A DNA stretch of 33,608 bases from assembly GCA_025350465.1 (NCBI GenBank), contig JANXXU010000010.1:1-33608 (forward strand), given 5' to 3'. The notes under the pieces are model-generated. The model was given only the letters and a program-made list of their open reading frames with translations. It was not told where the DNA came from and ran no database searches. Below, piece by piece: positions 1-4,266 of this stretch. Positions within the stretch are counted from its first letter, which is position 1. Each line of letters starts with the position of its first letter. The DNA comes from Alphaproteobacteria bacterium. GTDB lineage: Bacteria > Pseudomonadota > Alphaproteobacteria > Micropepsales > Micropepsaceae. The translations under genes were made by a program, and so were the position numbers.

Positions 1-1356
1 GTGTTTGGTCACCCCTTTCAACTCAACGCTACGGTTGAGGGGACGCGCGGTACGATCGACGGCACGAACGCTAGCAACAACCTGATCACACTCGCGCCTT
101 ACGATCGGATCGAGAATCTCAGCTTTGGTGGGAGCTTCAACGCGGCAATCTATGGGTCGAATACGGTTGCTACCGAATTGAAGAACATCTCTGTCGCGCC
201 AACTGCTGGTCAAATCGGCGCCCTGTTCTCGTCGGCGGCAACTGGCGGCGCAGCTGTTTCCACATATGTCCACATCGCCAACAGCAGCTTCACAGGACTG
301 GAGTCAGATGGAATCCAATTCGATGGCTCCGCTAGCGGCACCAACTCCTCCATCAGCTTTGGCGCGAACCTCGACAACGTGATTGCGTCATCAAATGGCG
401 GAAATGGCTTCTCCTTCAATCTGAGTGCATCTGGGAGCGGCGCTCACGCCACGGGAAATATTGCTGTTGATCCTTCGCACTTCGATGGCAATGGTCTCAC
501 TGGCATCAACCTCACGACCACTGCTGCCTCTGGGGCTCTTTTGGACACGAATGCTGCAATTGTGGGCACTACCTCGTCCCACACAACGGCAGATAACAAC
601 GGTACAATCGGTGTCAATATTTTTGAGAACGTATCGGCAGCGACAATCAATTCACTGTTTACGTTTGATAACCTCGATGTGAACGGCACGCTTGGAACGT
701 GCGGCTACGGATGCGGACTATTTGGGATAGTTGGTCTGCAATCGGGCTTCAAGAACTTAAACCTCGGGGATCAGGGTGGCGTCATCGTAGAAACATTGAA
801 CGCCGACAACGTAAGTGTCAGCAACGGTTTGGGATTAGGCTTCATAGCCGACAATACGCCATTTGGAACTGATCCGACCACCAATCTCACAGAGACCCTG
901 ACGCTTGACCATCTCTCGGTCGTGTCAAACGGCAATGACGGCGCTGGAATCGGTAACGGCACTCGCGGGAGCGGTGATGCGACAACCAATCTCGTGATTT
1001 CAAACAGCCAGTTCCTCAACAATCCAGATCGTCAGTTGGGAATGGGGAGCGACACGTCTTCGGGCGGCGCTGTTGGAAACAACCTCGTCATGAACTTCAC
1101 GATGACAAACACCACGATTACGGGCGGCAACCATGCTGGCATCGACCTTTCGGAGTTCGCGATTCCTGGAACGTCGACCAGTTACACGGTCAACATAACG
1201 AACAGCTATCTCTGCGGTAACGCTGCCTTCGATTTCACTGCATCGGTCTTCGGTGGCGGCAACACGACACGCAATATCCACGTGTCTGGGACGACCCTGT
1301 GCATCTTCGATCCACGTGGGGGGGCAACGACAGATTCGATAGTCATCACGCCGTGA
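1..1356 (+). CDS. Beta-helix-like surface protein, C-terminal part
   Basis: The reading frame is open from the first base, so the true start lies outside the window and only the last 451 residues are seen. The sequence is rich in Asn, Thr, Ser and Gly and repeats short blocks such as NSSFTG, NSQFLNN, NTTITGGNHAG and NSYLCGN. This is the rhythm of right-handed parallel beta-helix proteins, where each turn carries small and polar residues with an Asn ladder. Such proteins are usually secreted or displayed on the surface, as adhesins or polysaccharide-active enzymes. No catalytic motif or membrane anchor is visible, and it ends without an obvious autotransporter barrel. Two Cys pairs occur (GTCGYGCG, and LCGN with TLCIF). 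Base composition is clearly less GC-rich than the genes after 3000, which suggests transfer. The fold assignment is inference from composition and repeat pattern. Confidence 0.6.
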   Translation: MFGHPFQLNATVEGTRGTIDGTNASNNLITLAPYDRIENLSFGGSFNAAIYGSNTVATELKNISVAPTAGQIGALFSSAATGGAAVSTYVHIANSSFTGLESDGIQFDGSASGTNSSISFGANLDNVIASSNGGNGFSFNLSASGSGAHATGNIAVDPSHFDGNGLTGINLTTTAASGALLDTNAAIVGTTSSHTTADNNGTIGVNIFENVSAATINSLFTFDNLDVNGTLGTCGYGCGLFGIVGLQSGFKNLNLGDQGGVIVETLNADNVSVSNGLGLGFIADNTPFGTDPTTNLTETLTLDHLSVVSNGNDGAGIGNGTRGSGDATTNLVISNSQFLNNPDRQLGMGSDTSSGGAVGNNLVMNFTMTNTTITGGNHAGIDLSEFAIPGTSTSYTVNITNSYLCGNAAFDFTASVFGGGNTTRNIHVSGTTLCIFDPRGGATTDSIVITP

Positions 1357-1534: not shown

Positions 1535-1621
1535 TGGTGCCCGAGGTCGGACTCGAACCGACACGTTATCGCTAACGCGGGATTTTGAGTCCCGTGCGTC
1601 TACCAATTCCGCCACTCGGGC
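1535..1621 (-). tRNA. tRNA-Leu (anticodon CAA)
   Basis: Read on the minus strand it begins GCCCGAGTGGCGGAATTGG and ends with CTCGGGC, discriminator A and an encoded CCA. The seven acceptor pairs are perfect. The anticodon stem CGGGA/TCCCG encloses the loop CTCAAAA, giving anticodon CAA. A long variable arm and the T-arm sequence GGTTCGAGTCC are present, as in class II leucine tRNAs. All 87 bases are self-consistent, so the gene looks functional. It sits inside the low-GC region, 34 bases beyond the stop of the integrase gene. Confidence 0.95.
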
Positions 1622-1655
1622 AGGCGGCGTTTCTTACAAGACATTCGTCGCGGGC

Positions 1656-2852
1656 TCAACGCCAAATCTCGGCGGACTCTCGTACCTTTCGGACATTGAG
1701 TCCCTTCGTCAGCCTGGGTGACAACCACCGCGCATAGTGGTCTTGAATCATCTGCACGCTAGTGCGGCAGTTGTTGGCAACATCAAAGGCATTGGCGCCA
1801 TAAAGAAGTCGGAAGGAGATGTAGGTATGGCGCAACACGGTCAGGTCGCGCTTACGGGCAGGCAGCTCCTCCGTCCATTTCAGACCTGTCTCTTTCAATA
1901 CCGCATTGAACATGTCGCGGTGGTAGGCGAGGAATAGTTTTTCTGTTGAAGTTTTCGGGTCGCTGACGCCCCGTCGCGCGACGATGCGATTGAATGCTGC
2001 GACAGCGCCGTCCATCGTTCGGCATTCGCCAGTGCCACGTTTGCCGCGGATATTGCGAATCAGAAGATATTCCCGATTCACGCCATCGTTCATTTCTCGA
2101 TGGAACGAGACATCGCGAAAACAAGCGTTCTTTGCCTCACCCGTTCGCAAGCCCGAGTTCGCAATGAAAATCACATAATCATAGAGTTCTTTGCCGTCGC
2201 TCTCCCAGCGAGTGCCCTTCAGCGTCTTGATGTGTTTTCTGATTGCGGCAAGCAGTTTGGAATACTCGCTTGGCTCAAACCACACACGGGGAACTTTGAC
2301 CCGCCCGCTGCCATATTCATCTTTGATAACGGGCAACTGTTTGAGCCAGCCGTTGCGGTAAGCCTCGTTCAGCACCAACCGCAAGGCATTTTTGTACTGA
2401 TGAAAGGTGGCGCGCGAGATATTCGGTGATTGTGCGTAGGTGTGTGTCTTGAACTTTTCCCATTCCACGACGCCAATCTTCGTTACAGACTTGGTGCCGA
2501 AAAAAGGAAGTATCCGCTTTTCAAGATTCTGTTGGATTTGATCGAGATAGAACGGCGAACGTTCTCCCCGCTTTACCCTCGCCTCTAGGTTCTTGAGTGC
2601 AGATTTTGCAACGGTGGCTACCGTGCGACCGCCCAGCGTGTCGTTACCCGTTAGAATCTCGGCTCGCTGAAGCGTGAACCAGGTTTCGGCAAACGGTATT
2701 GCGCCTGTTAAGTCGATCTGCTTCGTGCTTCTGCGGACGTAGGAGCCCTTGTGGTGAAAGCCGCACCACCAGAACGGGGTGCCTGGACGCTGGAAAATAT
2801 GCAGCCGCCCATCGAAGCGCGTGATCTTCTTCAGACCCTGTTTTTCCACCAT
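1656..2852 (-). CDS. Tyrosine recombinase / phage-type integrase
   Basis: A 398-residue site-specific recombinase that would integrate or excise a mobile element. The N-terminal half (about 75-180) has the helical core-binding character of phage integrases. The C-terminal half has the catalytic residues: Arg236 in GLRTGE, a likely Lys271, Arg341 in LRHTYISF and the nucleophile Tyr373 in DHYARW. The usual first His of the HxLRHT box is replaced (TVLRHT), and the usual Gly-His before the Tyr reads CRTS; both are variants seen in integrase subfamilies. The ATG lies about 97 bases from a truncated tRNA-Leu at 2949 and the stop is next to an intact tRNA-Leu, the normal setting for a tRNA-targeting integrase. 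The upstream region is AT-rich. Length is normal and no frameshift is seen. Confidence 0.9.
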   Translation of the reverse strand: MVEKQGLKKITRFDGRLHIFQRPGTPFWWCGFHHKGSYVRRSTKQIDLTGAIPFAETWFTLQRAEILTGNDTLGGRTVATVAKSALKNLEARVKRGERSPFYLDQIQQNLEKRILPFFGTKSVTKIGVVEWEKFKTHTYAQSPNISRATFHQYKNALRLVLNEAYRNGWLKQLPVIKDEYGSGRVKVPRVWFEPSEYSKLLAAIRKHIKTLKGTRWESDGKELYDYVIFIANSGLRTGEAKNACFRDVSFHREMNDGVNREYLLIRNIRGKRGTGECRTMDGAVAAFNRIVARRGVSDPKTSTEKLFLAYHRDMFNAVLKETGLKWTEELPARKRDLTVLRHTYISFRLLYGANAFDVANNCRTSVQMIQDHYARWLSPRLTKGLNVRKVRESAEIWR

Positions 2853-2948
2853 AAATTACAGGTTAGCATTTTGTGTAGTCAATGTGTAGCTATATGTTTT
2901 CCGATAAATTGTAATTAAATCAACAACTTAGTTCTATCTTTAACAGCG
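2853..2948. promoter_or_regulatory. AT-rich integrase upstream / attachment region
   Basis: About 95 bases between the integrase start and the tRNA fragment are strongly AT-rich. They contain a direct repeat TGTGTAG at 2872-2878 and 2883-2889 (11 bases apart) and an inverted pair AAATTACA (2853-2860) with TGTAATT (2910-2916). Short repeats here are typical of arm-type integrase sites and the integrase promoter. The role is inferred from position only. Confidence 0.35.
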
Positions 2949-2987
2949 TTTTGAGTCTGCCGCGTCTACCAGTTCCGCCACAGGGGC
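2949..2987 (-). pseudogene. 5' half of a tRNA-Leu(CAA), truncated at the anticodon loop
   Basis: On the minus strand this reads as acceptor GCCCCTG, a D-arm (GGCGGAACTGGTAGACGC), the 5' strand of an anticodon stem and the loop CTCAAAA. It then stops resembling a tRNA, since the following CGCTG does not pair with GCAGA. Aligned without gaps to the intact tRNA-Leu at 1583-1621, 32 of 39 bases match. The two acceptor strands and anticodon stems differ in ways that keep each self-consistent, so the fragment comes from a different tRNA-Leu gene. It marks the boundary between low-GC and high-GC DNA and is the likely attachment site. Confidence 0.75.
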
Positions 2988-3145
2988 ACGTTCGGGCGTT
3001 CGAGGAAGGCGGCGAGCCGGTAGATCTCGCCTTCGAATGCGCGAAGGGCGCGCATAATAGGGACGCTTCTCTTGCCGTCAACCAAGAGCGGCATTGTGCC
3101 CCTAAGGGCGTGCGCAGACCGCGTCGCCGAGCTAGATTTGCGGCC

Positions 3146-3703
3146 ATGCAAAAGAGCGTCGCCGCGGCCGGCCCCAACAATCGCGCAAACCTGACCGCGC
3201 TGCTCGCCGAGCCGTTGGTATTCGCATCGACCCTTGCCGCGCTGGGCATCGGCCTCCTCCTCGGCGTATTCGCCTTCGAATATCTGGGGGGGATCAAGCC
3301 GTGCCATCTGTGCCTCGGCCAACGCCTGCCGTGGACCTTGATGACTGTGGTCGCGGGTCTCGCGATGCTGGGCCTTCGGCGCGGCGCGCATCCGGCGCTC
3401 GCACCGGCCGCCTTCGCGATCGCCGCGGCCATCGCGTTGTGGAGCATCTATCTCGCAGGTTTCCACGCCGGCGTCGAATGGAAGTGGTGGCCGGGGCCGC
3501 CGAGCTGCACTGGCACAGGCCTTTCGCCCAGTGGCGGTTTCTCGGCAAGTTTTGATCTGTCGCAGATCGTACGCTGCGACGAGATTGCCTGGTCGCTGTT
3601 CGGGTTGTCGCTCGCGGGTTATAATTTCCTCTTCTCGCTTGTGGCGCTGGCTGCGGCGGGCGCGGGTGCGACCTTGACGATGCGCCGGAACGGACGTTCA
3701 TGA
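3146..3703 (+). CDS. DsbB-family disulfide bond formation protein
   Basis: A 185-residue inner-membrane quinone reductase that would reoxidise DsbA-type thiol oxidases and pass electrons to ubiquinone. Four hydrophobic segments lie at about 20-40, 62-75, 85-105 and 146-175. The first Cys pair is in the family signature CHLCLGQR (Cys53, Cys56) and the second pair is Cys120 and Cys143 in the second periplasmic loop. The ATG at 3146 gives the expected DsbB length and a short N-terminus; the open frame runs further upstream but enters the tRNA fragment. The stop overlaps the next start as ATGA, so it is translationally coupled to the ubiquinone hydroxylase gene. The link to quinone chemistry is sensible because DsbB uses ubiquinone. 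Confidence 0.88.
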   Translation: MQKSVAAAGPNNRANLTALLAEPLVFASTLAALGIGLLLGVFAFEYLGGIKPCHLCLGQRLPWTLMTVVAGLAMLGLRRGAHPALAPAAFAIAAAIALWSIYLAGFHAGVEWKWWPGPPSCTGTGLSPSGGFSASFDLSQIVRCDEIAWSLFGLSLAGYNFLFSLVALAAAGAGATLTMRRNGRS

Positions 3704-4266
3704 GCGATAAGATCAAGCCGACGCCGCGTTTGCCGGGCGGTCATGCGCAAGAAAACGAAATCGCGCGCATGATTCGCGTCGACCATGCGGGCGAGCATGG
3801 CGCGGTCCAGATCTATGCAGGTCAGCTCGCCGTGCTCGGCCACACGAAATCCGGCGACACCATCCGCCAGATGGCGGCGCAAGAGGCCGAACATCTGGAG
3901 ACCTTCGACCGGCTGGTCGCCGAACATCATGTGCGCCCGACGGCGCTGTCGCCGATCTGGCATGTGGCGGGCTATGCGCTCGGTGCCGCGACTGCGCTGA
4001 TGGGCGAGAAGGCGGCGATGGCCTGCACGGCCGCCGTCGAAGAGGTGATCGACGAGCACTACGCCAAGCAAGCGGCAGCGCTCGAGCAAAGCGGCGAAGG
4101 CGACGCGCCGCTCAAGCGCACAATCGAAAAATTCCGCGCCGACGAGATCGCGCATCGCGACACGGCGCTGGCGCATGGCGCGGAAGAAGCCCCGGGCTAT
4201 CGTCTGCTTTCGGATACGATCAAAGCGGGTTGCCGTATCGCGATCCGCCTCTCGGAGCGATTTTGA
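3700..4266 (+). CDS. coq7: Demethoxyubiquinone hydroxylase (COQ7 family)
   Basis: A 188-residue di-iron monooxygenase that hydroxylates 3-demethoxyubiquinone in ubiquinone synthesis, acting at the inner membrane. Carboxylate and His ligands of the ferritin-like four-helix bundle are visible: Glu32 in the strongly conserved RVDHAGEHGA block, ExxH at 62-65 (EAEH), Glu115 and Glu119-His120 in AAVEEVIDEH, and ExxH at 149-152 (EIAH). Length matches bacterial COQ7. Its start overlaps the stop of the dsbB-like gene (ATGA), and its own stop overlaps the next ATG, so the three genes form a tightly coupled operon. Alphaproteobacteria often use COQ7 where enterobacteria use UbiF. Confidence 0.95.
   Translation: MSDKIKPTPRLPGGHAQENEIARMIRVDHAGEHGAVQIYAGQLAVLGHTKSGDTIRQMAAQEAEHLETFDRLVAEHHVRPTALSPIWHVAGYALGAATALMGEKAAMACTAAVEEVIDEHYAKQAAALEQSGEGDAPLKRTIEKFRADEIAHRDTALAHGAEEAPGYRLLSDTIKAGCRIAIRLSERF

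Follow-up and report, generated by a model that had tools for sequence, protein, structure and literature searches.

The tDNA islands described in the Islander work rebuild the tRNA gene that serves as their target (PMC4383910), and archaeal elements of the pTN3 type are described as supplying the 5' half of the gene (PMC8371274). A further relationship between element and target, tRNA-dependent lysogeny, was described for actinophages by Guerrero-Bustamante and Hatfull in 2024, in a work that assayed the tRNA dependence and that includes phage Gaia, with a tRNA-Leu-CAA site and a tRNA downstream of Int (PMC10865867). That account leaves open how frequent the arrangement is outside actinophages, and whether the replacement or the loss of reconstruction came first (PMC10865867). 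In addition, Sinorhizobium meliloti prophages similar to Mesorhizobium phage vB_MloP_Lo5R7ANS are described as inactivating a tRNA-Leu(UAG) and carrying a foreign one (PMC11476347). Finally, the group I introns of bacterial tRNA-Leu(UAA) genes sit in the anticodon, according to a review that places all phage introns then known in protein genes and speaks of scant evidence for movement between bacterial species (PMC3984707).

Here, we analyse a locus that brings these subjects together. The window, by which we mean the whole stretch of 33,608 bases under analysis, runs from the first base of contig C14 in a draft genome of 4.06 Mb (52 contigs, 98.3% complete). We consider it very probable that an element broke the only tRNA-Leu(CAA) gene of its host at the anticodon loop, by means of a tyrosine integrase, and that the foreign tRNA-Leu(CAA) carried by the element takes over. 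Four observations carry this reading: the two halves of the broken gene lie on two contigs, the gene is intact in relatives, the genome has a single complete CAA gene, and like layouts occur elsewhere. The features are collected in Table 1.

Table 1. Features of the insertion in the window and at its other end on contig C51
Feature	Position	Strand	Evidence and remarks
ORF of unknown family, 451 aa, presumed cargo	1..1356	+	Begins at contig end; in the lower-G+C part
Complete tRNA-Leu(CAA), element-carried replacement, CCA encoded	1535..1621	-	ARAGORN; Rfam RF00005 59.3 bits (cut-off 29)
Tyrosine integrase, 398 aa	1656..2852	-	PHROG 1 integrase, E 3.4e-14; stop 34 bases ahead of replacement tRNA
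CTACACA twice (2872-2878, 2883-2889), putative integrase arm sites	2872..2889	-	By eye
Host tRNA-Leu(CAA) 5' half, 39 nt, ends at anticodon loop	2949..2987	-	Identical in five congeners
11-bp core CAGACTCAAAA, common to the other insertion end (C51/L040)	2949..2959	-	Longest stretch shared by both junctions
Putative host tRNA promoter: TTGACG, ~17 bp, CTATTATG	3053..3082	-	By eye; function inferred
dsbB, chromosomal flank	3146..3703	+	Pfam DsbB, E 3.4e-27; adjoins intact tRNA in relatives
coq7, chromosomal flank	3700..4266	+	Pfam COQ7, E 6.3e-67; adjoins intact tRNA in relatives
Second, unrelated integrase, off contig edge	L040 (C51) 3-785	-	Arm-DNA-bind_3 and SAM-like domains

The original prediction had placed two tRNA-Leu(CAA) 5' halves in the same orientation around an integrase, one within a complete gene and one ending at its anticodon loop, and the locus agrees with this description: both are on the minus strand with the integrase ORF between them, ARAGORN and Rfam both call the first complete, and the other breaks off after CTCAAAA in the anticodon loop, beyond which the DNA is not tRNA. 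Read on the minus strand from the chromosome, the 5' half is followed after 96 bp by the integrase gene and, 34 bp further on, by the complete tRNA, beyond which an ORF reaches the contig end; this 451-aa ORF has no match in Pfam or PHROG. Counted by eye, the two copies share 32 of 39 bases and differ in the acceptor and anticodon stems. Separate origins had been proposed on these grounds, and indeed the host gene of relatives matches only the broken half: the same 39 nt start the intact tRNA-Leu(CAA) of five genomes of the same genus with no mismatch. The half scores 78 and shuffles of the region at most 27, a score in which the reference is this same half and only the relatives are independent; with both results, a chance origin of the 39-nt half is excluded. 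The complete copy was said to lie in low-GC DNA and the broken one at the junction with high-GC DNA, which matches a G+C content of 54-56% across 1-2000 and 65% across 3001-4000.

The window integrase shares 33-36% identity with six relatives, and an LRHTYI block is invariant in all seven aligned sequences. Repeats of the form TTACACA or TAGCACA, similar to the CTACACA of the window, also precede related integrases in the printed sequences. The putative host promoter now points at the 5' half and the integrase gene, and it resembles the TTGAC...CCCTAATATG found ahead of the intact genes of relatives. Upstream of the replacement tRNA itself, no convincing promoter box is present in the window (p 0.27).

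Since the window begins at the first base of C14, the left neighbourhood was sought on other contigs. A pattern search of the genome located the missing 3' half, for which an acceptor CAGGGGC had been predicted, at C51:898-956, where it ends in exactly this acceptor strand. Both junctions have the 11 bp CAGACTCAAAA in common, and the halves, joined in a script, give one ARAGORN tRNA-Leu(CAA) with 3-4 mismatches in 87 positions to the intact gene of five relatives, while ARAGORN calls no tRNA on either junction alone. With a shared core of only 11 bp, a working gene is restored at neither of the junctions, which leaves the host copy dead. By eye, two of the mismatches disrupt the pairing of the variable-arm stem in the displaced half, which is what a dead copy would be expected to show. 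All 46 tRNA hits of the assembly could be typed and, as anticipated, none besides the copy at 1535-1621 is CAA, in an assembly that is 98.3% complete and may have gaps; a tRNA-Leu(UAA) is retained.

The locus in other genomes of the genus points the same way. An intact GCCCCTG...CAGGGGC gene stands beside dsbB and coq7 in five of the ten (G002, G004, G005, G007 and G009), and a tRNA like that at 1535-1621 has no match in any of the ten, so the relatives bear out the view that the complete copy is not the chromosomal gene. The genes of C51 are found across the tRNA in G002 and G007, at distances of 5 and 9 kb on one contig, and in G004 about 9 kb past the distal end of an element; the roughly 6 kb available beyond the tRNA in G005 and G009 does not contain them. 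By this synteny, C14 and C51 are the two sides of one locus. Together, the 3' half on C51, the intact relatives and the single CAA gene among the typed hits support the central claim of the original prediction, namely that the element cuts a host tRNA without restoring it and brings a full tRNA with the same anticodon.

The remaining genomes of the genus are of several kinds. In G006 and G010 the CAA gene is likewise intact; its sequence differs from that of the congeners, and its upstream region is similar (L234, on G006:C124; L240, on G010:C183). The search for tRNA-Leu(CAA) found no match in G003 (64% complete) or G008 (86% complete). G001 also has its tRNA-Leu(CAA) gene interrupted at this loop, by different DNA and around a core of 7 bp (CTCAAAA); the break lies at the end of G001:C28 (L060/L112) and the start of G001:C13 (L236), and both contigs stop soon after. 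There, 39 of 40 tRNA hits were typed without a single CAA, so any replacement in G001 would be unassembled.

A second instance, complete on one contig, comes from another genus of the same family (G034). Its 5' half (C8:128088-128126) is followed by a related integrase and a complete tRNA-Leu(CAA), whose acceptor differs from that of the broken gene, and the 3' half lies at C8:156531, giving an element of about 28.4 kb with both ends in view. The cargo includes a DNA methylase, a Vsr-like nuclease, two HATPase proteins resembling type II restriction enzymes, a MobA/VirD2 relaxase, HipA, a Sel1 protein and a second integrase, the remaining scanned ORFs having no assignment. No phage structural family turned up in the 13 proteins that were scanned, ten with each of Pfam, PADLOC and PHROGs, and a tblastn search with the integrase against 50,697 phage records gave no match. 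From its gene content, the element looks like a mobilizable, relaxase-bearing island rather than a phage. Twelve of the 45 tRNA hits of this genome are at least 82 bases long, and the replacement is the only CAA among those 12 typed.

The layout extends to a large integrase family. An alignment of seven integrases drew 540 relatives from the genome collection, and the best 80 of these, together with seven from genome searches (seeds included), make up 87 loci in records of Pseudomonadota, Planctomycetota, Acidobacteriota and Verrucomicrobiota; because only the best 80 of 540 were used and several are near-duplicates (L202 and G035 are identical), the counts are neither unbiased nor independent. 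With integrases defined by the HMM, a complete tRNA lies upstream at 26 loci, a tRNA-Leu lies downstream in the same orientation at 55, and six have neither (G033, L163, L150, L154, L145 and L127); both together occur at none of the 87. An earlier classing by an ORF rule, which missed some genes, had given 24, 54 and 9. The upstream-complete layout is, by layout and displaced fragments aside, that of ordinary reconstruction, and the 24 tRNAs of the first classing are Met (9), Lys (5), Phe (4), Arg (4), Thr (1) and Gln (1).

At the loci with a downstream tRNA-Leu, the spare stands 18-318 bp behind the integrase (median 60, 50 measured loci). A broken tRNA-Leu half ending in the anticodon loop lies upstream at 40 of the 54 loci of the first classing, under a half-tRNA cut-off of 40 (accepted halves score 44-78, shuffles at 15 per locus at most 28, complete tRNA-Phe up to 39); the other 14, by eye, have contig edges, mis-set starts, the opposite orientation (L167) or a bare core without tRNA. 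Wherever both anticodons could be read, the broken gene and the spare agree (38 of 38 loci, 27 UAA and 11 CAA; Fisher p 8e-10). Five of the 27 UAA genes, labelled Phe or Ser by ARAGORN, were counted as Leu(UAA) by their 5' exons; leaving them out makes the agreement 33 of 33. The 385 genomes of the class, a less biased sample, gave 14 integrase matches above 500 bits: seven with a complete tRNA before the integrase (G044b included), five with a tRNA-Leu behind it (the window included) and two with a broken UAA half only. IMG/VR adds nine loci, three of them strong; of these three, a tRNA-Leu(CAA) lies downstream at L278, L277 shows a broken UAA half and L276 has neither. The family integrases have no match among solved structures or NCBIfam models. 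The idea that spare CAA genes avoid the anticodon stem of the broken gene finds no support in the ten usable of 11 pairs, with 2.8 mean identities out of five as against 2.99 in shuffles, 12.6% of which are as low.

Some loci of the family have a different appearance. By eye, the integrases of L167 and L150 each adjoin the 3' half of a tRNA that lies on the opposite strand and is broken at its anticodon loop; the tRNA is Leu(UAG) in L167 and apparently Thr in L150, which has no spare tRNA nearby. A bare anticodon-loop core without a recognisable half stands upstream at L128, L143, L149, L165, L186, L188, L147 and L200; we offer unintegrated attP, episomes or tandem copies as a reading of these. 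G044b (L050, G044:C1:2944052-2945182) has a complete tRNA-Met before the integrase and a second complete tRNA-Met 253 bp behind it, and is perhaps a Met version of the spare-tRNA layout.

How much of the locus belongs to one element is a separate matter. C14 and C51 both end inside the element of the window, whose interior between them is unassembled. The 3' half, expected as the other end of the element, was found, but the second integrase stands 112 bp from it, and the end may be that of a second element. This integrase is 52% identical to a similarly placed one in G004, which belongs to a reconstructing element of 18.4 kb at the same tRNA, complete at one end and with a spare 3' half at a distance; given this kinship, the gap may hide a further 3' half or a further element. 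Breakage and replacement could thus be refined to a composite locus, with the replacement element at the 5' half and a second, reconstructing element, that of the C51 integrase, at the 3' half. The 3' half on C51 would then be the outer end of the second element, and the right end of the replacement element would be unassembled. We give this refinement slightly less than even credence: the second integrase and its counterpart in G004 speak for it, whereas a third 3' half was not found in the assembly, although the gap could hold one, and in G034 a single element of this kind, bounded by one 5' and one 3' half, is enough.

Other readings would remove the replacement altogether. It is improbable that the tRNA at 1535-1621 is a passenger, or the relic of an earlier host, and compensates nothing. 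Mobile elements commonly carry tRNAs, the promoter signal in the window is weak, and CAA is perhaps non-essential here because tRNA-Leu(UAA), which the genome keeps, can probably also read UUG. A passenger, however, would hardly keep so close behind the integrase across the family, match the anticodon of the broken gene at every readable locus, UAA included, and be missing behind the integrase at all 26 loci with a complete upstream tRNA. Ordinary reconstruction in which the element gives the 5' half, as in pTN3, would join an element 5' half to a host 3' half at 1535-1621 and make 2949-2987 the displaced host half. It would account for a complete gene on one side of the integrase and a half gene on the other, on the same strand, but we reject it as exceedingly improbable, since the complete gene departs from the host gene of relatives in its acceptor, anticodon and variable arms, and the matching host 3' half is on C51. 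A reconstructing tDNA island was rejected for the window too, a complete target tRNA being present at neither junction. Just as hard to credit is an artefact of assembly or binning that sets unrelated contig ends side by side: the draft is in 52 contigs and both junction contigs end within the element, yet both junctions are internal to contigs, the synteny of relatives joins the flanks and the layout recurs in many assemblies.

For breakage and replacement, we propose the following mechanism. The integrase would exchange strands within the anticodon loop, and the resulting junction would kill the host gene, whose promoter may go on transcribing what is left of it together with the integrase gene. 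Lying just downstream of the integrase gene and oriented as the broken gene, the spare tRNA would keep the codon readable. Many spares are preceded by a box resembling TTGGCG-17-TATAGA, so they may have a promoter of their own; boxes with p up to 0.05 precede 24 of 53 spares and are suggestive only. The window integrase presumably made the window insertion, and the replacement tRNA is presumably transcribed and charged, with the cell dependent on it. To our knowledge, the UUA codon is read by no tRNA other than UAA. Since UAA cannot be spared and CAA may be, dependence should be strictest in the UAA elements.

Many of these spares are interrupted. Among 54, 30 are interrupted in the anticodon, 21 are uninterrupted (16 CAA, 3 UAG and 2 UAA), and three that ARAGORN leaves incomplete have a UAA-type 5' exon. 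About thirty are thus tRNA-Leu(UAA) genes with an insert of 204-271 nt (all 32 intron calls), placed by ARAGORN inside the anticodon after its first base, and the contiguous loop CTTAAAA is present in none of the 32 intron-called spares. Rfam finds the group I intron RF00028 at its cut-off in six of 16 submitted sources with an intron call and in none of four others, and two more group I introns fall below the cut-off. From their length, their position and the ARAGORN calls, the remaining inserts are probably group I introns as well.

A cut at CTTAAAA presupposes that no intron interrupted the loop of the broken gene; a spare with an intron thus lacks this core, and the intron may shield it from recombination. 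It is tempting to speculate that the spare tRNA is immune to the recombinase of its own element, most neatly by having its anticodon loop, the attachment core, interrupted by a group I intron, and that the islands spread intron-bearing tRNA-Leu(UAA) genes across phyla and lock the genome against elements using the same loop; we regard this as possible but put it forward tentatively. If true, a selfish intron would acquire a vehicle and the island an immune spare part. In the reverse direction, four of 30 RF00028 loci in the 385 genomes of the class have a family integrase in the fetched flank, directly before the intron, so most tRNA group I introns in the class lie outside these elements; G401 is an additional case, with about 2.1 kb between integrase and intron. 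RF00028 also matches within tRNAs that ARAGORN calls Arg, Thr, Lys and others (L207, L208, L218, L226, L231 and others), loci without a family integrase in the fetched flank. The family nevertheless suggests a vehicle for the patchy spread of bacterial tRNA group I introns.

The integrases also bear on the order of events. On a quick tree of the 87 integrases, the layout changes three times over 81 classed rows, as compared with at least 19 in 20 label shuffles, and intron presence changes 12 times over 52 rows. An earlier tree of 74 rows, which left out 13 of the 87, mostly upstream-complete, had two layout changes, and very long branches in it make the place of the window integrase and of L127 unsure. 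At L152 and G044a the left junction (L152 2774-2847; L043 2835-2764, minus strand) is chimeric, joining the 5' half of a tRNA-Leu(UAA) to an element-borne 3' half that has no long variable arm and whose acceptor does not match. These chimeras score 34-36 bits as tRNA, and an intron-bearing spare lies downstream of both. The rebuilt genes of L152 and G044 are apparently non-functional, and at L151 and L164 the decay seems to have gone further. This would fit a history in which reconstruction came first, then failed, and finally gave way to replacement, one of the orders considered by the authors of the actinophage work (PMC10865867). Because one integrase family holds both layouts plus chimeric intermediates, this order becomes testable.

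The original prediction presented the rescue as a strategy unlike the usual 3'-end reconstruction. This stands for the window, but not as a new strategy, since it was published for actinophages in 2024 (PMC10865867) and, with the two alphaproteobacterial prophages (PMC11476347), the principle is already in print. Like tRNA-dependent lysogeny as described there, the locus combines a tyrosine integrase, an attB overlapping a tRNA gene, no reconstruction and an element tRNA of the same isotype. The integrase is at the junction, the core of 11 bp is short, as are those of 8-17 bp in actinophages (PMC10865867), and the target is, as far as the assembly shows, the only host gene of its anticodon. 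In contrast to the actinophages, G034, the sole relative with the whole element on a contig, looks like a relaxase-bearing island, the family spans several phyla, the tRNA stands just behind the integrase gene, and many spares bear introns; we compare the two groups of integrases by description, and dependence in this family is inferred. The S. meliloti prophages resemble the window in that an alphaproteobacterial tRNA-Leu is broken and replaced by an element gene of other origin, in a description that covers two prophages only (PMC11476347).

Like Islander islands, the window has a tyrosine integrase, a tRNA target and a displaced fragment marking the far end; the Islander-type layout, a complete tRNA before the integrase gene, is that of 26 of the 87 family loci, whereas the junctions of the window have no working tRNA. 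Programs that recognise islands by a rebuilt tRNA would probably overlook elements of this kind. In the open-access literature we found no report of intron-bearing spares, of a mobilizable or relaxase-bearing island of this kind, or of a family-wide tRNA-Leu cassette behind the integrase gene. As far as we have searched, then, the relaxase-bearing island, the multi-phylum family, the intron-bearing spares and the chimeric intermediates are new. The spare-tRNA layout is thus common in a large integrase family and apparently reaches beyond phages and, unlike the tRNA-Leu(UAA) introns reviewed to date (PMC3984707), the interrupted gene is here the cargo of an integrative element.
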